From positions 1 through 16,585 of the forward strand of contig CAMZCV010000004.1 of the NCBI GenBank assembly GCA_947305035.1: 16,585 bases of DNA, written 5' to 3'. The notes beneath the pieces are model-generated. The model was not told where the DNA came from. It ran no database searches and saw nothing but the letters and a program-made list of their open reading frames with translations. Numbering within the stretch: position 1 is the first letter of the stretch; each line of letters opens with the position of its first letter. Positions 8,875 to 16,585 of this stretch are shown here, piece by piece. The position numbers and the translations under genes were made by a program. The DNA comes from an uncultured Coriobacteriales bacterium. GTDB lineage: Bacteria; Actinomycetota; Coriobacteriia; Coriobacteriales; Atopobiaceae.

Positions 8875-9465
8875 TTACTCAGCCTTGAACGGGAAGTGGA
8901 AGGCGTCGAGAAGAGCCTTGCCCTCCGCGTCGGTGGGGGCAGAGGTGACGATGGTGATGTCCATACCGCGGGTACGGTCGATCTTGTCGAAGTCGATCTC
9001 GGGGAAGATCAGCTGCTCGGTGACGCCCATGGAGAAGTTGCCACGGCCGTCGAAGCTCTTGGGAGAGATGCCGCGGAAGTCGCGGATGCGGGGGATGGCG
9101 ATGGCGATGAGGCGATCGAGGAACTCCCACATGCGGTCGCCGCGAAGGGTGACCTTGCAGCCGATGGCCATGCCCTGGCGCACCTTGAAGTTAGCGATGG
9201 ACTTGCGGGCATGGGTGACGAGGGGCTTCTGGCCGGTGATGGCGGTGAGGTCGGAGACGGCCGCCTCGATGACCTTGGAGTCCTGAGCTGCCTCGCCGAC
9301 GCCCATGTTGACGACGATCTTCTCGACCTTGGGGATCTGATGGACGTTGGTGTAGTTGAACTTCTTCTGGAGCTCGTCGCGGACGGTGGAGAAGTAGTAC
9401 TCCTTCAGGCGCGGAGTATAGTTCTCGGGCAGTGCGGTGGTGGGCTTGACTTCCTTCTTTGCCAT
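8875..9465 (-). CDS. rplE: 50S ribosomal protein L5
   Basis: L5 anchors 5S rRNA in the central protuberance. The 196-residue product has [19 protein letters not shown], the signature after it ([20 protein letters not shown]), [21 protein letters not shown], and a C-terminus with [20 protein letters not shown]. An N-terminal extension of about 10 residues ([10 protein letters not shown]) precedes the core. AAGGAGG lies 6 nt before ATG 9465-9463. This is the first ribosomal gene of the block: rplX and rplN, which normally sit directly upstream, are absent from the adjacent sequence. Confidence 0.97.
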
Positions 9466-9697
9466 GATTCCTCCTTAGACTCTTGGTGGTTTACGTGCGG
9501 GGATTTTGCCTCGCACCACCCAGGCTTGGCGGGCCCGGGAGCCATGATGCATCTCCATGCAAAGATGGCCTCTACAGAGAGACGCGAAGTAATAATATAT
9601 CCCTAATCAGGGGGCATTTCCAGCGGCTTTTTCGTTTTATGCAGGTTTTTTGAGGCTGTTTTCGAGATGCCGGAGGACAGTATAACCCAGCGTTTGA
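9466..9697. other. AT-richer junction between rplE and the inverted-repeat unit
   Basis: This 232-bp stretch has no credible gene. Nearest rplE is the structured leader. Further out, on the minus strand, there is a T/A-rich run with overlapping -10-like hexamers TATATT and TATTAT (9592-9600), but no convincing -35 at the right distance; this is the likely promoter zone for rplE. A TATACT (9684-9679, minus strand) lies just outside the left arm, also without a -35. A small stem CCCT/AGGG (9601-9612) is present. No remnant of rplX or rplN coding sequence was recognised on either strand. Confidence 0.5.
9485..9539 (-). promoter_or_regulatory. Structured leader before rplE, candidate ribosomal-protein control site
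   Basis: Two stems lie within about 75 nt of the rplE start. In the proximal one, GTGCG (9495-9499) pairs with CGCAC (9512-9516) and the stem continues with GGTG (9485-9488) against CACC (9517-9520), leaving a 6-nt one-sided bulge. The distal one pairs CCCAGGC (9519-9525) with GCCCGGG (9533-9539) with one wobble pair. In E. coli, S8 binds a bulged helix at this position and represses the operon, so an S8 site is a reasonable guess. I did not align it to known S8 sites. Confidence 0.4.
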
Positions 9698-9820
9698 CGA
9701 AGTCGGTAGGTACCCGCACGAAGTCGGTAGCAAATTTGCGATTTGCCGAGTATGCCTTTTTCGTTTGCGCAGGTAGATTGCTCGGACATGATTTGTTAGC
9801 CATAACTAACCTACCGACTT
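9698..9820 (+). repeat. Left 123-bp inverted arm with terminal inverted repeats
   Basis: The arm begins CGAAGTCGGTAGG and ends CCTACCGACTT, so its own ends form a perfect 11-bp inverted repeat (AAGTCGGTAGG). A third copy, CGAAGTCGGTAG, occurs inside it as a direct repeat about 20 bp from the left end. The middle carries a GCAAATTTGC palindrome (9731-9740) and CCGAG/CTCGG, which could pair across about 30 nt. The arm resembles a miniature element with no coding capacity. Confidence 0.8.
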
Positions 9821-10057
9821 TGTCACCCCATCTCGGTGACGGCGATACCGAGGCGCTGTGATGACCTTGTGGATTCCCCGATTCTCGATCTGGAACCCAT
9901 CATCCAACGCGCTAGAGACGTTCGTCTGAGAAAACGCTGCTCACAGGCCCGGCCTCGCGCTGTCCTGAAGAAATGTGCAAGCTACCTGGAATCTCGGCGG
10001 CAGAAATCTGAAAGTGTCGGTTGCTACGATGCGGCCAACGGGAGAAGAGGAGGCCGT
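9821..10057 (+). other. Upstream region of the nuclease gene
   Basis: The frame is open here from a GTG at 9836, but the residues do not look like a conserved domain and a better start exists at 10058. A perfect 6-bp stem CTCGGT/ACCGAG with a 9-nt loop (9832-9852) lies 11 bp from the left arm. A 12-bp palindrome AGACGTTCGTCT (9916-9927) could be an operator. TACGAT at 10025-10030 is a possible -10 box about 28 nt before the start codon; no matching -35 is visible. Confidence 0.4.
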
Positions 10058-10972
10058 ATGGATATGGTGATCAGCCACGAAAGCGCACTTTCGTTTCTCG
10101 ATGCATGCGCACGTAAGAAGTCCAAGCCCGCTTATCAGATCGCGCTTGCGCCGTATCCGGGAGGGCTCCCTTATGAATGCGCCTACCGCAAAGAAGACTT
10201 CGCTCGGTTTTCGCTAAGCAGATTTGCACGTCCCAACAAATGCATCGACGTGCTCGTTCCCGACAAGACGTTCGTGAGGAGGGTGAAAGGATTCACCCAT
10301 CATTCCGCAGGTGGGGTGCTCCCCGACGGCTCGCTGCTCGATGCAGGGGGCGACATACTCGTATGCAGCGCACCGATGTTGTTCGTTCAACTCTGCCAGG
10401 GGAAGAGCCTGATCGAGTGCATCAAGCTCGGCTTCTTTCTCTGCGGCACCTATTCTCCAGAGCCCACCTCTCCAACTGGCACGGTCGAAAGATACCCTCT
10501 CACGACTACAGATGTCCTAGAGAAGTATGTGCCCAAGGCGCGCCGCCTCCGAGGGTCTCGCAATGCCTTCGCAGCGCTGCCTTGGATCCTCGAGGGAAGC
10601 GCCTCCCCCATGGAGACCGAGCTCGCCCTCCCGTTCTTCCTTCCAACAAAGCTCGGAGGGTATGGTTTCGACGCGCCAGTCATGAACTACCCCATTCCAC
10701 TGCCTGAAAAAGGGCGAAGGATTCTCAAGAAGAAAAAGGTCAGAATCGATGTCTACTGGCCTGACCAGCGCATCGGCTTCGAATACGACAGCAAGGCGGG
10801 CCATGGACGTCTGGAGCAGCACGGCTCAGACCAGGCGAAGGCGCTTGTTCTCGAGAGCATGGGCATCCACATCGAGTCTGTGACAAAAGCGCAGGTAGAT
10901 GATCCGCGGCAGCTCGGCATCCTTGCAAATATGCTCCGTGAGTACGGAGTTTCATATAAGTTACCAAGTTAG
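10058..10972 (+). CDS. AbiEi-like protein with C-terminal Vsr/DUF559-type nuclease motif
   Basis: A 304-residue predicted cytosolic protein. Residues about 1-130 (VISHESALSFLDACARKK, ICSAPMLF-like VCSAPMLFVQLCQGKSL, ECIKLGFFLCGTYS) resemble the AbiEi-type antitoxin region I associate with Coriobacteriia. After SASPMETELAL (Glu186), residues about 228-290 carry RIDVYWPDQRIGFEYDS, then His249 and Asp258 and the segment KALVLESMGIHIESVTKAQ. Asp231, Glu242, Asp244 and His249 fit the D-x(n)-E-x-D/H layout of DUF559/Vsr-like PD-(D/E)XK endonucleases. The start ATG 10058 follows GAGGAGG by 4 nt; ATG 10064 is an alternative. There is no adjacent AbiEii nucleotidyltransferase. Likely defence or element-maintenance nuclease; function is not shown. 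Family assignment is by eye. Confidence 0.7.
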   Translation: MDMVISHESALSFLDACARKKSKPAYQIALAPYPGGLPYECAYRKEDFARFSLSRFARPNKCIDVLVPDKTFVRRVKGFTHHSAGGVLPDGSLLDAGGDILVCSAPMLFVQLCQGKSLIECIKLGFFLCGTYSPEPTSPTGTVERYPLTTTDVLEKYVPKARRLRGSRNAFAALPWILEGSASPMETELALPFFLPTKLGGYGFDAPVMNYPIPLPEKGRRILKKKKVRIDVYWPDQRIGFEYDSKAGHGRLEQHGSDQAKALVLESMGIHIESVTKAQVDDPRQLGILANMLREYGVSYKLPS

Positions 10973-10981
10973 AAGCATATG

Positions 10982-11104
10982 AAGTCGGTAGGTTGCGTTA
11001 GGCTAACAATTCAGACCCAAGCGATTTACCTGCGCAAACGCAAAAGGCATACTCGGCAAACCGCAATTTTGCTACCGACTTCGTGCAAGCACCTACCGAT
11101 TTCG
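10982..11104 (-). repeat. Right 123-bp inverted arm with terminal inverted repeats
   Basis: This is the inverted partner of 9698-9820. It has AAGTCGGTAGG at its inner end and CCTACCGAT at its outer end (one change from the left arm), and the internal CTACCGACTTCG copy. Differences between the arms cluster in the third nearest the nuclease gene, while the outer two thirds are nearly identical. Where the left arm has CTCGG the right has CTTGG in the same orientation, which keeps pairing with CCGAG through a wobble. Confidence 0.8.
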
Positions 11105-11197: not shown

Positions 11198-11842
11198 ATG
11201 GACTACGATGCGCGGAGGACCAAAGACGAGCTTGTAGACGGCTGGTGCTGGACCTTCGCCAGCCCCCAGGACCACATCTACCACGACACCGAGTGGGGCG
11301 TACCCGTACACGACGACACGCACATGTTCGAGCACTTCTCGATGGAATGCCTGCAATGCGGCCTCTCGTGGAACACCATCCTGCTCAAACGGCCCGTTCT
11401 GCGCGAATGCTTCGCCGGTTTCGACATCGACGACGTGGCGGCCTTCAGCGAACAGGACATCGAGCGTATCCTCGCAACTCCCGGCATGCTCCGCTCAGAG
11501 CGCAAGGTTCGTGCCATCGTGGGCAACGCACGCGCTGCACAGCGGCTTCGCGAGGAGTTCGGCTCCTTCAGCGCATACTTCTGGGGCTGGACCGACTGCA
11601 AGACAGTCCTCTACGAGGGACACGAGAAGGGCGGCATTCCCGCCAAGAACCTCCTCTCCGAACGCATGGCGAAAGACCTCAAGCGCAGGGGCTTCTCGTT
11701 CGTCGGTCCCACCAACGTCTACGCCCACCTGCAAGCCTGCGGAATCATCTGCGATCACAACGAGCGGTGCCCGCGCTATGCATATATCTCGAGGGAATTC
11801 CCCTGCGTGCGGATGGAGCGCGATGAAGGGGACCGCCCCTAG
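11198..11842 (+). CDS. tag: DNA-3-methyladenine glycosylase I
   Basis: Tag removes 3-methyladenine from alkylated DNA as the first step of base-excision repair. From ATG 11198 the product is 214 residues. Family features are C17 (GWCW), H29 (YHDTEWGVP), Glu50 and Trp58 (ECLQCGLSW), GMLRSERKVRAIVGNA, KRRGFSFVGPTNVYAHLQACG, and H187/C191 (DHNERC). Cys17, His29, His187 and Cys191 match the zinc-binding set of E. coli Tag. GGGGG lies 6 nt before the start. The frame stays open back to 10979, but that part is the right arm in translation and lacks similarity to Tag. The gene is transcribed away from the ribosomal block; a TACACT (11153-11158) may be a -10 box. Confidence 0.94.
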   Translation: MDYDARRTKDELVDGWCWTFASPQDHIYHDTEWGVPVHDDTHMFEHFSMECLQCGLSWNTILLKRPVLRECFAGFDIDDVAAFSEQDIERILATPGMLRSERKVRAIVGNARAAQRLREEFGSFSAYFWGWTDCKTVLYEGHEKGGIPAKNLLSERMAKDLKRRGFSFVGPTNVYAHLQACGIICDHNERCPRYAYISREFPCVRMERDEGDRP

Positions 11843-12188: not shown

Positions 12189-15100
12189 ATGCATGTAGCT
12201 CGGAAGATGAGGCGCTTGCCTCCTTTGAAGCATGGGTTGGCGCGGAGAACGGGGGTGATCGCCCTTACCGCGTTGCTTGTCCTGAACAACCTGCTCTTCG
12301 GCATTGCGCCAGCCATGACGTATGCCGACGAGCTGGAGGTAGAGGAGACATCCGTCGAGGTTGAGGAGGAAGAACCCGAGGAGCAGGAAGCTGTGGAGGT
12401 GCTCGATCCTCCCAGCCTGGAAGACGCTAGCGATACTCCGGTGGAGGAACTAGACGAGTCCGTCGTTGTTGATGATGGCGCGGAACCTGACGCGAACGCT
12501 CCCCCAGAAGAGCCTGAGGCAGAGGAGCAGGAGGCCGAGCTACCTGAAGTGCCCGCATGGGTTGCCGCAACTTATCGGATTGCGGGAGATGAGGAGCGCG
12601 CCTTCGAGGAACCTGCAGAGGTGGTTGCGGGAGACGGCGTGAATCGCGTCATTCTCAAAACGGACTTCGATGTTGAGGGGGAAGTGTCCTCGTGCGCGGT
12701 GACGCTTCTGCTCGACGAAGAGGATGTCACCGGCCAGGCACTGGTGGCGCCCGATGCGAGCTGGATCGATGTTCCTTCCGATATCGACCTTTCGAGATGC
12801 AGGGTCGAGGTCTCTGTCGTGATCGAGAGCGCTGCCGAGGCGGATGGGAAAGAGCCTGCAGAACCCGAAGGGGCCATCGACGATGAGATGGCTCCCGAAG
12901 AGGCCGCTCCCGAGACGCCCCTGCCTGTAGAGACGGATGACGAGGAGCCTGTTGAGTCGTTCGACGAAGAGGCCTATGCCGAGCAGCTCGAGATCATCGC
13001 CAGCTACCTCGACGAGGTGGGTGCAACCGATGCCGAGCGCCAAGCGTTCATGATGGACATCGGCGCGCCCCTGCTCCGCTCGGCGGGAACCACGGGCACC
13101 ATCACGAGCATCAAGCCGACAGGCCTCGGAGACGGCATCACCGCGGGATACTGGTGGACGCTCGACGGCAAGCAGGCCTACTGCATGTCCGGGTTCTTCG
13201 CAGACCCGGCGGTAGGTCAGACGCTCACCCGCTACGAGGGCAGCCTCGGCATCGATGAGCTCGATTTCGTCCTCTACCACGGCTACGACGGCGTGAATGT
13301 CACAAGCGTCGGGGGGCTCGATGCCATGCGATCCATCGCCGCAACGCAGGCAGCGGTGTGGTATGTGGTGGGCGACAAGCGCGAGGACGTGCTCGATATC
13401 CGCGGGTGGTTCCACAACGACAACTACTACAACCGACTCTACGGCCTGAACGTCATCGACGGCAGGCAGGATATCTTCCGTGCAGCCAAGTCGCTCGTCG
13501 ACGGAGCGGTAGCCTACGCGAACGCGGGAGGCGGAGGTCCCGAAGCGGGCTTCGCGAAGGTCTATCTCAATGATGGGACGGTCCGTAACAGCGTGGGCAA
13601 TCTCGTGCAGCACATGGTCGCGGTGGGCGAGCGCGAGGGCACGCTCAAGGTGGTCAAAACATCGAGCAACCCTGACACCTATACGCTCTCTGCGTACAGC
13701 ATCGCAGGAGCAAAGTACGGCGTGTACAGCGATAGCGCCTGCAGGAATCTTGTGACGACGATTGCCATCGGATCCGACCGCTCGGGCTCGGCTACGCTCA
13801 CGGCAGGCACCTATTACGTGAAGGAGACCACGGCGGGCGCGGGATATTTGCTCGACACCACGGTGCATACCGCCACCGTCGTCGCAGGAGGCACCGCAAC
13901 GGTTAGCTCGATCGAGGAACCGGAGCCCGCGAAAGCACGGGTGAAGAAGACCTCGTCGTCCGAGATTCCTTCGGGCAGCTCGGGCTATTCGCTTGCGGGC
14001 GCGGAGTACGGGCTCTACGCAACGCGCTCGGACGCCGATGCGGACGCCAACCGTATGGGCACGTTCACCACGAAGAAAGACGGGACCTCCAACGAGATAG
14101 AGGTGCTCGCGGGCACCTACTACGCCAAGGAGCTCAAGGCATCCCCTGGATTCGAACTCGATACAGCCGTGCATGCCATAACGGTGTCCCCCGGCCAGGT
14201 CGGCACCTTCACGTCGGTCGAGAAGCCCAGGCAGGGCAGTATCGAGATCGTGAAGGTCTCGGCAAATCCCTCGCTCACGGCCAGCCTTTCCTGCTACTCG
14301 CTCGCAGGGGCGAAATACGGCGTCTATGCGTCGCGCACAGACGCCCAAAAGGACACGAACCGCATGAAGACGATCGTCACCAATGCAAACGGTAAAGGCT
14401 CCGCGCAGCTCTTCGCGGGATCCTACTTCGTGCGCGAGGTCGAGGCGAGCCCTGGCTTCCTGCTCGACTCCACGGTGCATTCCGTCACCGTCTCTCCAGG
14501 CAGTACGGGCACGGTCAAGTCAACCGAGCAGCCGTTCAGCGTCCCCCTGGACGCCCGGGTGCAGAAGGTCGACAAAAACACGGGCGAGGCACTCCCCTCA
14601 GGCAGCGGGTCGCTCGCGGGGGCGGAATTCATGCTCAGCTTCTACGACAACGTTGCGGGAAGCACGTCGGGTTCGCCCGCGCGCTCCTGGGTATTCTCCA
14701 CGGATGAAAGCGGAGCGGTTGACTTCAGCTCCGCAACGCCGGTATCCGGCGATGCGTTCTTTTCCAGCGCAAACGGCACGCGCGTCTTCCCCGTGGGCAC
14801 CTATACCGTGCAGGAGACAAAGGCGCCCATGGGGTATCAGCGCGACACCACCGTTCATAAGCAGGTCATCAACGCCAATGATGGTGGGAAGGTCGCAGCT
14901 GCGCTGTTCGGAGCCTCAGGCGGAAGCATTATCGTAAACGAGCAGGTCAAACGTGGCGACGTTCGCTGGGTCAAGGTCGATGGCGACGGCAACCCCATGG
15001 CGGGCGTCGAGTTCAGAATCACCAACTCGAAAGGCGAATCCATCATCGTGGCGACAGACGCCGAGGGCATCTTCGACAGCTCGCGTCCCGAGGATAAGGC

Positions 15101-16585
15101 GCAGGCATGGATGCCCGTGGGCACGGAGGTTGACGAGCAGTTTGGCTCCTTCCCGTACGACTCCTACACGGTGACCGAGCTGCGCACCGCCGCTAATGCG
15201 TCTTCAAGCACGATGCTCGAGTTCCCGTTTTCCATCGATGATGCGACAGCGGGAACGGTTGTCGATCTTGGCAGCAAACCCAACGAGATTGTGACCATCG
15301 GCACCGTACTCGCCACGGATGCGGGGACGCACTACGCGCCCGCAGTTGGGTCTGTCGTTCTCACCGACACCATCTCCTACACCAACCTGGAGTCTGGAGC
15401 GACCTACTGGTTCGAAGGCAAGCTCGTCGACAAGGCGACGGGCGAGAGCATCGGAGTCACAGCCACAGGAGATACGTTCATCCCCGAGGAGCCCGAGGGC
15501 ACCGCCACGATGACCTATATGATCGAGGATGCAGCCATCCTCGAGGGCAAAACCATCGTGTGCTTCGAGACCCTGCACCGTGAGGACGATGAGGGCTTTG
15601 CTGTGGTCCACGAGGACATCGACGACGTCGCGCAGACCGTCTACTTCCCCGAGATCGGCACCACGCTCACAGGTGCCGAGGGAAGCCATGAGGTTCTTGC
15701 AGCTGAGAACGTCACCCTCACCGACACCGTCGCATACACCAGCCTCGAGCCTGGCAAGTCCTACACCGTGACCGGCGAGCTCATGGATCGAGAATCCGGC
15801 GAACCCACGGGCATCACCGCCTCCACCGTATTCACCCCCGAGGAGACAAACGGCACCGTCGAGGTATCCTTCGAGTTCAAGGGCGTCGCGGTAGCGGGCA
15901 AGACCGTCGTGGCTTTCGAGACGGTCGAGCATAAGGGCAGGATCTGGGCGGTGCATGCGGATATCGAGGATGATGCCCAAACCGTCAGCTTCCCCAGCAT
16001 CTCCACCACATTTGTCGACCGTGAGGGCGAGCACGAGTCCGCCGTCGTGGACGAGACCGTCATCCTCACCGATACCGTCGAGTACAGGAACCTCATCCCC
16101 GGCAAGGAGTACGTGCTCAACGCCGAACTTGTCGACAAGGACACCGAGGAGGTTCTGGCAACCGGCACCGCCGCCTTCACCCCCGAGGAGCCGAGCGGAA
16201 CCGTCGACGTAACCATCGAGGTCGCCCTGGCGGACGTTAAGGGGAAGGTCACCGTGTGCTTCGAGACGCTCGAGCGGGAGGGTCGCGCAGTGGCCGTTCA
16301 CGCCGAAATCGAGGATGCGGGGCAGACCGTGAACTTCCCCGATGCGTGCACCACGCTCACGGACACCGAGGGAAACCAGGAGGTTCTCGCTGCGGAGACT
16401 GTCGCCCTCACCGACACCGTCGCGTACAGCGGCCTCAACGTTGGCAAGACCTATACCGTGACCGGCGAGCTCTTCGACAAGAAGAGCGGCGAGAGCACGG
16501 GGATCGTCTCCGAACCTGTGGAGTTCACACCCGAGGAATCCAGCGGCACCGTCGAGGTGGTTTTCAACTTCCCCGGCGTCGAGTG
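12189..16585 (+). CDS. Thioester-domain adhesin with SpaA-like and VaFE repeats, C-terminus beyond window
   Basis: One open frame of 1465 codons runs to the right edge without a stop. ATG 12189 follows GAGGTG by 5 nt. Residues 1-46 are a signal peptide (basic head, then VIALTALLVLNNLLFG, cleavage likely after TYA46). Residues 47-120 and about 240-290 are Glu/Asp-rich. A thioester domain spans about 310-450 with Cys332 (GKQAYCMSG) and Gln387 in ATQAAVWYV, matching the TQxAIW motif, so an internal Cys-Gln bond for covalent attachment to host amines is likely. Five SpaA/Cna-B-like domains (about 485-1034) show Lys near the start and YYVKE, YYAKE, YFVRE, YTVQE, YTVTE motifs typical of isopeptide bonds. 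VaFE repeats follow from about 1036. The sortase motif should lie beyond the window. Such proteins are cell-wall anchored host or mucus adhesins or pilus tips. Confidence 0.88.
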   Translation, partial: MHVARKMRRLPPLKHGLARRTGVIALTALLVLNNLLFGIAPAMTYADELEVEETSVEVEEEEPEEQEAVEVLDPPSLEDASDTPVEELDESVVVDDGAEPDANAPPEEPEAEEQEAELPEVPAWVAATYRIAGDEERAFEEPAEVVAGDGVNRVILKTDFDVEGEVSSCAVTLLLDEEDVTGQALVAPDASWIDVPSDIDLSRCRVEVSVVIESAAEADGKEPAEPEGAIDDEMAPEEAAPETPLPVETDDEEPVESFDEEAYAEQLEIIASYLDEVGATDAERQAFMMDIGAPLLRSAGTTGTITSIKPTGLGDGITAGYWWTLDGKQAYCMSGFFADPAVGQTLTRYEGSLGIDELDFVLYHGYDGVNVTSVGGLDAMRSIAATQAAVWYVVGDKREDVLDIRGWFHNDNYYNRLYGLNVIDGRQDIFRAAKSLVDGAVAYANAGGGGPEAGFAKVYLNDGTVRNSVGNLVQHMVAVGEREGTLKVVKTSSNPDTYTLSAYSIAGAKYGVYSDSACRNLVTTIAIGSDRSGSATLTAGTYYVKETTAGAGYLLDTTVHTATVVAGGTATVSSIEEPEPAKARVKKTSSSEIPSGSSGYSLAGAEYGLYATRSDADADANRMGTFTTKKDGTSNEIEVLAGTYYAKELKASPGFELDTAVHAITVSPGQVGTFTSVEKPRQGSIEIVKVSANPSLTASLSCYSLAGAKYGVYASRTDAQKDTNRMKTIVTNANGKGSAQLFAGSYFVREVEASPGFLLDSTVHSVTVSPGSTGTVKSTEQPFSVPLDARVQKVDKNTGEALPSGSGSLAGAEFMLSFYDNVAGSTSGSPARSWVFSTDESGAVDFSSATPVSGDAFFSSANGTRVFPVGTYTVQETKAPMGYQRDTTVHKQVINANDGGKVAAALFGASGGSIIVNEQVKRGDVRWVKVDGDGNPMAGVEFRITNSKGESIIVATDAEGIFDSSRPEDKAQAWMPVGTEVDEQFGSFPYDSYTVTELRTAANASSSTMLEFPFSIDDATAGTVVDLGSKPNEIVTIGTVLATDAGTHYAPAVGSVVLTDTISYTNLESGATYWFEGKLVDKATGESIGVTATGDTFIPEEPEGTATMTYMIEDAAILEGKTIVCFETLHREDDEGFAVVHEDIDDVAQTVYFPEIGTTLTGAEGSHEVLAAENVTLTDTVAYTSLEPGKSYTVTGELMDRESGEPTGITASTVFTPEETNGTVEVSFEFKGVAVAGKTVVAFETVEHKGRIWAVHADIEDDAQTVSFPSISTTFVDREGEHESAVVDETVILTDTVEYRNLIPGKEYVLNAELVDKDTEEVLATGTAAFTPEEPSGTVDVTIEVALADVKGKVTVCFETLEREGRAVAVHAEIEDAGQTVNFPDACTTLTDTEGNQEVLAAETVALTDTVAYSGLNVGKTYTVTGELFDKKSGESTGIVSEPVEFTPEESSGTVEVVFNFPGVE
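13116..13538 (+). other. Thioester domain of the adhesin
   Basis: This segment holds both reactive residues expected of a TED: Cys332 (TGC 13182-13184) and Gln387 (CAG 13347-13349), 55 residues apart, with aromatic/hydrophobic context (YWWTLDGKQAYCM, RSIAATQAAVWYVVGD). In characterised Gram-positive adhesins these side chains form a thioester that reacts with host protein lysines. Whether the bond forms here is not known from sequence. Confidence 0.75.
13641..15293 (+). repeat. Five SpaA/Cna-B-like domains
   Basis: Approximate units are 13641-13925, 13926-14228, 14229-14534, 14535-14945 and 14946-15293. The first three are close relatives (SLAGAKYGVY, SLAGAEYGLY, SIAGAKYGVY; then an extended YYVKE-like strand and a GF/GY-L-D-T-x-VH motif). 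The fourth is longer, with an insert around a SYD-like loop, and the fifth is divergent. The near-identity of the first three suggests duplication within the gene. Confidence 0.75.
15294..16585 (+). repeat. VaFE repeats, four visible, last one cut
   Basis: Units are 15294-15650 (119 codons), 15651-15995 (115), 15996-16340 (115) and 16341 to the edge. Each has an LTDTVAY-type strand, a PGK-YxVxGEL-DK-SGE stretch, an FTPEEPSGT-like turn, the VxFETL motif that names the family, and a closing VHADIEDxxQTV-FP. Units two and three have exactly equal length. In unit two the DK-TGE lysine is Arg (MDRES). More units are expected beyond the window. Confidence 0.85.

Follow-up and report, generated by a model that had tools for sequence, protein, structure and literature searches.

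The nuclease locus and its two palindromic units

The window, by which we mean the whole stretch of 16,585 nucleotides that was analysed, carries a nuclease gene at 10058..10972 on the plus strand, encoding 304 amino acids when read from the start that is conserved in relatives. Its left neighbour is rplE (8875..9465, minus strand), identified by tblastn and by synteny with three genomes of the same genus; on this side the ribosomal block ends with this gene. The right neighbour is tag (11198..11842, plus strand), encoding DNA-3-methyladenine glycosylase I, which was recognized from an Adenine_glyco match (E 2.8e-63) and the start of which was placed by eye. Downstream of tag, from 12191 to 16585, internal repeats recur at a spacing of 340-360 bp up to the contig end, and by eye this stretch resembles the gene for a repetitive surface protein.

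An earlier note on this DNA described two inverted 123-bp arms of equal length around the gene, with the stop codon 9 bp before the right arm, and both points are borne out. A repeat search places the arms at 9698-9820 and 10982-11104, 123 nt each, 85% complementary and 1161 nt apart, and 9 bases separate the nuclease stop from the right arm. Compared with one another by BLASTN, the left and right flanks aligned with an E value of 1.6e-36 and a score of 141 bits, whereas four shifted window pairs from the same contig gave at most 31.9 bits.

Each arm is an inverted repeat in its own right, formed by 9695-9711 and 9809-9825 on the left and by 10981-10993 and 11091-11103 on the right. The motif GAAGTCGGTAG is present in one, two or three copies spaced 21 bp apart and faces an inverted motif at a start-to-start distance of 90-91 bp; the same step and facing distance are also seen in other units of this genome. 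The left palindromic unit, corresponding to the earlier left arm, was delimited by repeat and motif searches to 9695..9825 (no strand assigned) and contains GAAGTCGGTAG at 9699-9709 and 9720-9730 on the plus strand, 21 bp apart, and an inverted copy with one mismatch at 9811-9821 on the minus strand. The right palindromic unit, the earlier right arm, spans 10981..11104 (no strand assigned) in the opposite orientation, with GAAGTCGGTAG at 10981-10991 on the plus strand, an inverted copy at 11072-11082 on the minus strand and another, with one mismatch, at 11093-11103 on the same strand. When folded as single-stranded DNA, the left unit surpassed its shuffled versions on both strands (z of -4.53 and -2.40), and the right unit did no better than shuffles (z of -0.83 and -1.03). 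The arms are best explained as two palindromic repeat units and not as the ends of one transposon, within an overall reading that we hold to be rather probable. The palindromic nature of each arm, like the gene-less copies elsewhere in the genome, was overlooked by the earlier note.

By eye, a promoter-like layout consisting of CTACCTGC, about 16 bases and CATACT recurs inside most units of this genome. Examples in the window (11020-11070 and 9745-9790), one on either side of the nuclease gene, face away from it.

The protein and its family

Counted from the Met encoded at 10064, a nuclease domain of the Vsr/EDxHD type extends over residues 181-296. In a model built from this Met the domain matches I-Bth0305I and Vsr, and an EDxHD-type catalytic fold is accordingly predicted for the window protein; Foldseek by itself gave no match for this protein at E<=0.001. 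Among 28 aligned family members E184, D229, E240 and H247 are invariant and D256 nearly so. The assignment of E, D, H and D residues to the EDxHD motif is our own reading, with H247 standing opposite no histidine of 3r3p in the sequence alignment. Residues 1-176 tentatively resemble the C-terminal half of the AbiEi antitoxin: the model aligns with AbiEi residues 69-195 only, and the helix-turn-helix half has no match. DUF559 (PF04480) and MTES_1575 (PF18741) matched 11 and 13 of the 28 members, respectively, weakly and at E<=1, and the MTES_1575 match to the window protein (E 0.15) fell below the cut-off. The label of an AbiEi-like/DUF559-type nuclease that had been given to the gene is sharpened to a homing-endonuclease-like (Vsr/EDxHD) catalytic domain, with a tentative AbiEi-like part and weak DUF559/MTES_1575 matches. 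No transposase or integrase appears among the family matches of the nuclease gene or of the downstream ORF, which agrees for these two with the earlier statement that none is recognised. PADLOC gave no match, no relatives were found in viral contigs in scans of IMG/VR, and Rfam matched only tRNA across eight sources, with no intron family in the window.

The four closest proteins (P0001-P0004) are 69-99% identical to the window protein, and 138 of 200 relatives hold a family match at E<=1e-20. A sample of 80 family loci, the best 80 of 89, was drawn from a collection of species genomes; nearly all are assigned to Coriobacteriia or a subgroup of it, a few are placed only as Actinomycetes, and one as Propionibacteriaceae. 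The genome of the window itself contains, by two methods, five paralogous matches besides the window gene, 25-32% identical, and the paralogues on contigs C29 and C10 are flanked by other repeat pairs of their own. The gene is best explained as a member of a large Coriobacteriia nuclease family with a Vsr/EDxHD-like domain and, tentatively, a domain like the AbiEi C-terminal half.

Repeats beside family genes

The flanks of the 80 loci and of the window were compared, and 80 of these 81 could be scored, one flank of L126 being too short. A repeat shared between left and right flanks (at least 35 bits) was found at 24 of 80 loci, compared with 2 of 259 shifted control pairs; at the other 56 the left-right repeat stayed below 35 bits. 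The repeats of the 24 pairs are direct in 17 cases and inverted in 7. Inverted repeats within one flank, scanned for with a loop of 30-150 and a score of at least 12, are far commoner at family genes than in control windows (78/158 flanks versus 9/260; 4 of 162 flanks were too short). They occur upstream in 48/79 cases and downstream in 30/79; 66 of 81 genes have one in at least one flank, and 12 of 77 have one in both. A second sample, made up of 30 loci from 41 match rows in four same-genus genomes together with the five paralogues and run with no separate control, gave 19 loci with a shared left-right repeat of at least 35 bits among the 32 that could be scored, mostly of the same genus, and an inverted repeat scoring at least 12 in 22 of 35.

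The repeat sequences vary from gene to gene, close relatives excepted, and some units have long arms. Protein identity and stem similarity are correlated across 61 genes, with one flank taken for each (Mantel r 0.295, reached in 0 of 2000 permutations). Most of this correlation derives from proteins that are more than 60% identical, so that shared descent accounts for part of it. A CAGGT core common to all units seemed general by eye and was dropped, since C(C/G)AGGT is present in 15 of 71 loops where genomic controls lead one to expect 10.8.

Units without a gene

The assembly of this genome comprises 1.66 Mb in 339 contigs and is 69% complete. It holds the full 1407-base stretch from 9698 to 11104 once, with arm-like stretches on C262, C36, C17 and C84. 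The check proposed earlier, for whole-unit copies at other loci with precise ends, therefore came out negative in this 69% complete assembly: no second whole 1.4-kb copy was found, nor were terminal repeats found as the ends of whole-element copies, as in an insertion sequence or a composite transposon. Exact matches to GAAGTCGGTAG number 18 in the genome, 9 on each strand, against 0 for a reversed control pattern. When up to two mismatches to the motif are allowed and sequence similarity is used as well, gene-less units occupy seven places on five other contigs (two each on C17 and C36, one each on C68, C84 and C262); a lone motif on C128 has no partner and was left out of the count. None of these five contigs has a match to the nuclease family at E<=1. 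Arm-like units thus lie beside unrelated genes without the nuclease, an arrangement that the earlier note itself had named as speaking against an element boxed by its arms.

On C17 the units are flanked by the end of gyrA on one side and by the end of another gene on the other. On the three contigs where a crude gene caller could place them, the gene-less units of this genome lie between convergent gene ends; the C84 unit was unplaced and that on C262 is at an edge. The idea that units occur only between convergent genes was dropped, because most placed rows in other genomes are tandem. Of 47 unit rows, some of which are pieces of one unit, none falls inside a called gene and 9 are at an edge, by the same crude caller, which at L076 placed its call on the strand that does not carry the family gene.

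We searched nine genomes with nine unit pieces from eight genomes, scoring up to 40 candidates in each genome. In counts that take in gene flanks, partial rows and rows from both strands, there were at least 64 matches in G204, at least 61 in Rubneribacter badeniensis (G201), at least 36 in Paraeggerthella (G202), at least 15 in G205, at least 13 in Gordonibacter An230 (G207), at least 11 in G004 and at least 5 in G203. Among the matches listed, all 5 of Olsenella phocaeensis (G200) are at the nuclease gene itself, and one of the 4 in G206 is outside the gene contig. These counts indicate that dispersal is strong in some genomes, with none seen in others.

The unit edges were measured in one family, by means of a set of 21 Rubneribacter/Gordonibacter-type units. 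Of these, 19 come from Rubneribacter, including two that flank the gene, and the other two from Gordonibacter An230; an antisense row that duplicated another was dropped. Mean pairwise identity is 93% in the arms, 68% in the interior and 30-43% in the bases outside. Conserved arms with a diverged interior and diverged surroundings imply that units of this Rubneribacter-type family have sharp edges, the ends being kept while the middle drifts. At 603 of 629 stem positions the bases pair, a number reached by 3 of 5000 shuffles (mean 592.6). An230 carries these Rubneribacter-type units, and the two An230 stretches that were checked have no matching gene.

Units and genes within the genus

A presence/absence table was drawn up for six unit families in five genomes, namely that of the window and G001-G004, two of which are about 68% complete; the candidates scored were those from a first look, 40 of 48 in G004 and 40 of 56 in G001. 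Among the candidates scored, the unit family of the window has 8 matches, all in its own genome, and 99 other relatives lack the exact facing pair of GAAGTCGGTAG motifs. Two families that come from G004 and G001 were found, again among candidates scored, in those two genomes only, and both genomes hold syntenic orthologues of both source genes. Two families from G002, on C78 and C155, are confined to G002 on the same basis, and the C29 family is found at C29 of the window's genome, G002 adding a single match of 44 bases. None of the six families tested was seen in G003; a profile search detects four other members of the protein family there, none of which reached E<=1e-20 in the first search. 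In these five same-genus genomes, then, the six unit families were found only where the source gene or its syntenic orthologue is, apart from the one 44-base match.

The two orthologous gene pairs of G001 and G004 keep their positions, with similar repeats. At nine gene-less unit sites of G001, G004 also has a unit in five (one a partial match of 56 bases, one judged from a single flank), and the remaining four give no clean empty/filled pair against G004; the gene-less units move slowly. At L251 and L249 (G001 contigs C21 and C81), the flanks of gene-less units map to different G004 contigs. Units may on this account sit at rearrangement breakpoints, and contig ends may explain part of the pattern.

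The same site in relatives

In all three relatives that could be assayed (G001, G003 and G004), neither the nuclease gene nor its units lie between rplE and tag, in line with the empty sites that the earlier note had proposed to look for; G002 has no rplE match. No other family gene lies between rplE and tag in these three, and among the candidates scored no window-family unit was found there. The proximity of tag to rplE recurs in these relatives without the element. G004 and G001 have the order rplE, a gene read by eye as thymidine kinase, tag, with another family member 3.7 kb past tag in G001. In G003 rplE is followed by a tag that is inverted relative to the window, G001 and G004 (L179, 5600-6500), and homology between the window and G003 ends near 9652, about 45 bases ahead of the left arm. 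The earlier claim that the element marks the point where the ribosomal cluster breaks off is correct in that the cluster ends here; that the element broke it is rejected, since the end at rplE is common to G001, G003 and G004, which lack the element, and the element need not have broken the cluster.

At the gene-less sites on C17 and C36, all four relatives have both flanking genes and no window-family unit in the sequences inspected. Some have a short spacer instead (G001 at gyrA) and others different palindromes. The palindromes at these two intergenic sites thus vary between species, CCAGTTGTTTGTA in G003 and GTGACAAGGGGACAGGTCATTCGTCAC in G004 being examples (L289-L295, L281-L287). From their sequences, sites of the C36 and C17 type look as if they were landing places for several repeat families. 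Ten further stretches that look like repeats were chosen by eye at the two orthologous intergenic sites, and one had a match close beside a family gene, on C166 of G002, with 18 bases identical (E 0.001). For two of the G004 stretches there were weak matches, with E between 1e-4 and 5e-4, at a distance of about 1.5 kb from one family gene, and a motif resembling the G002 stretch (GTGGTGATGCAGA) occurs in the repeat beside the C29 gene of G003.

A probable partnership of nuclease and repeat

Our best explanation, which we take to be probably right, is a REP/RAYT-like partnership between palindromic units and an unrelated nuclease, with gene subfamilies that are each paired with their own unit. 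From the unit anatomy, the dispersal in several genomes, the association of genes with units and the predicted nuclease fold we infer binding, cutting and spreading. The protein likely binds units; it would do so at its own unit as a dimer or oligomer, with two facing half-sites and further half-sites at 21-bp steps. The upstream unit may then serve as an operator that represses the nuclease gene. Nicking or cutting at units would be followed by repair that copies, converts, spreads and homogenises them. Whether the nuclease in this way drives the spread or upkeep of the units we consider an even bet.

The strongest alternative is that the units are operators only. An AbiEi-like protein would autoregulate its gene and a few other sites, and the nuclease would do something else, for instance defence, without spreading units. 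AbiEi proteins regulate their own genes through inverted repeats, with two sets of them in one case (PMC7319586). Of the 43 inverted repeats upstream of genes of the present family, 24 have their end 6-47 bp ahead of the approximate start, as operators might, and conserved arms around a diverged interior also fit binding sites. Operators are unexpected between convergent gene ends, however, where the placed gene-less units of the window's genome lie; the AbiEi match covers the C-terminal half without the helix-turn-helix half; and downstream copies, together with tens of matches in some genomes, are hard to fit to a regulon. On this evidence operators alone appear unlikely, though they deserve serious consideration.

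We regard it as distinctly improbable that the units are structural or 3'-end elements, such as terminators, mRNA stabilisers or nucleoid sites, with nuclease genes merely situated among them. The absence of placed unit rows from called genes and the long arms of several units are what such elements would lead one to expect. Against this reading stand the unit families that track gene subfamilies in the genus tested, the similar stems of similar proteins and the excess of units at family genes over control windows. Least probable is a single mobile element that ends at 9698 and 11104 and moves by means of its nuclease: although gene and arms are absent from the site in G001, G003 and G004, this 69% complete genome holds no second whole copy, arm-like units occur alone, the repeat pairs are mostly direct and two orthologous gene pairs stay put in G001 and G004, and a single boxed transposon is therefore rejected. 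What survives of the mobile or selfish element proposed earlier is the association of nuclease and repeats and the empty site in three of three relatives, without a single unit ending at 9698 and 11104; a broader selfish or homing-like version may hold.

Beyond the locus, the partnership of nuclease and units raises the idea of a second, independent origin of REP-like repeats, in which Coriobacteriia Vsr/EDxHD nucleases of many specificities would each seed and homogenise their own unit by cutting and repair. We put this forward tentatively, as somewhat less than an even chance. Among open-licence papers, screened by title or by the start of the abstract, we found no description of this nuclease-repeat association. 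If true, gut Actinobacteria would have an unrelated second nuclease with palindromes to match, and gene-repeat partnerships would have arisen more than once. There would also be a natural set of many nuclease-target pairs from which to read DNA specificity, and the spread of REP-like repeats could be tested with a different enzyme chemistry.

Comparison with known systems

Several known systems come close to this arrangement. The AbiE type IV toxin-antitoxin differs in that a nuclease domain is added here and the helix-turn-helix half is unmatched, the frame upstream of 10058 lying outside the model; no gene for an AbiEii nucleotidyltransferase toxin adjoins, the neighbours being rplE and tag. 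Likeness to DUF559 and MTES_1575 (PF04480, PF18741) is limited to weak matches in some family members, with the window protein below the cut-off, and we know of no repeat association for these families. Compared with the EDxHD homing endonuclease I-Bth0305I (PMC3943268), the window has no intron family match, the N-terminal part of the protein is another one, and the candidate targets are dispersed repeats. The gene-free site seen in relatives would correspond to the empty allele of a homing system.

REP-type repeats are common, and to our knowledge the RAYT family is the only enzyme tied to them. RAYTs are related to IS200/IS605 transposases and are always flanked by two inverted REPs, as PMC2817692 states. 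At the nuclease gene of the window two inverted flanking repeats are likewise present, but not throughout the family, where pairs are more often direct than inverted and many genes have a detected unit on one side only. The enzyme is also different: a Vsr/EDxHD-like nuclease accompanies units of about 85-190 bp, and neither the window protein nor any of the 28 members has a Pfam match to Transposase_17 (IS200/IS605-type). Since the enzyme's domain resembles other folds and not every gene has paired inverted repeats, this is not a RAYT. The likeness lies in the arrangement, since, as with REP/BIME and RAYT in PMC2817692, palindromes beside a gene have counterparts scattered between genes, the repeat is present where the gene is (here in a small sample and with one 44-base exception), and repeat and protein co-vary, with complementary changes kept in the stems. 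Dispersal in intergenic DNA is seen as for REP/RAYT, though not in every genome, units of Olsenella phocaeensis being at the gene only among the matches listed. The closest working analogue is the RAYT with its REPs (PMC2817692).
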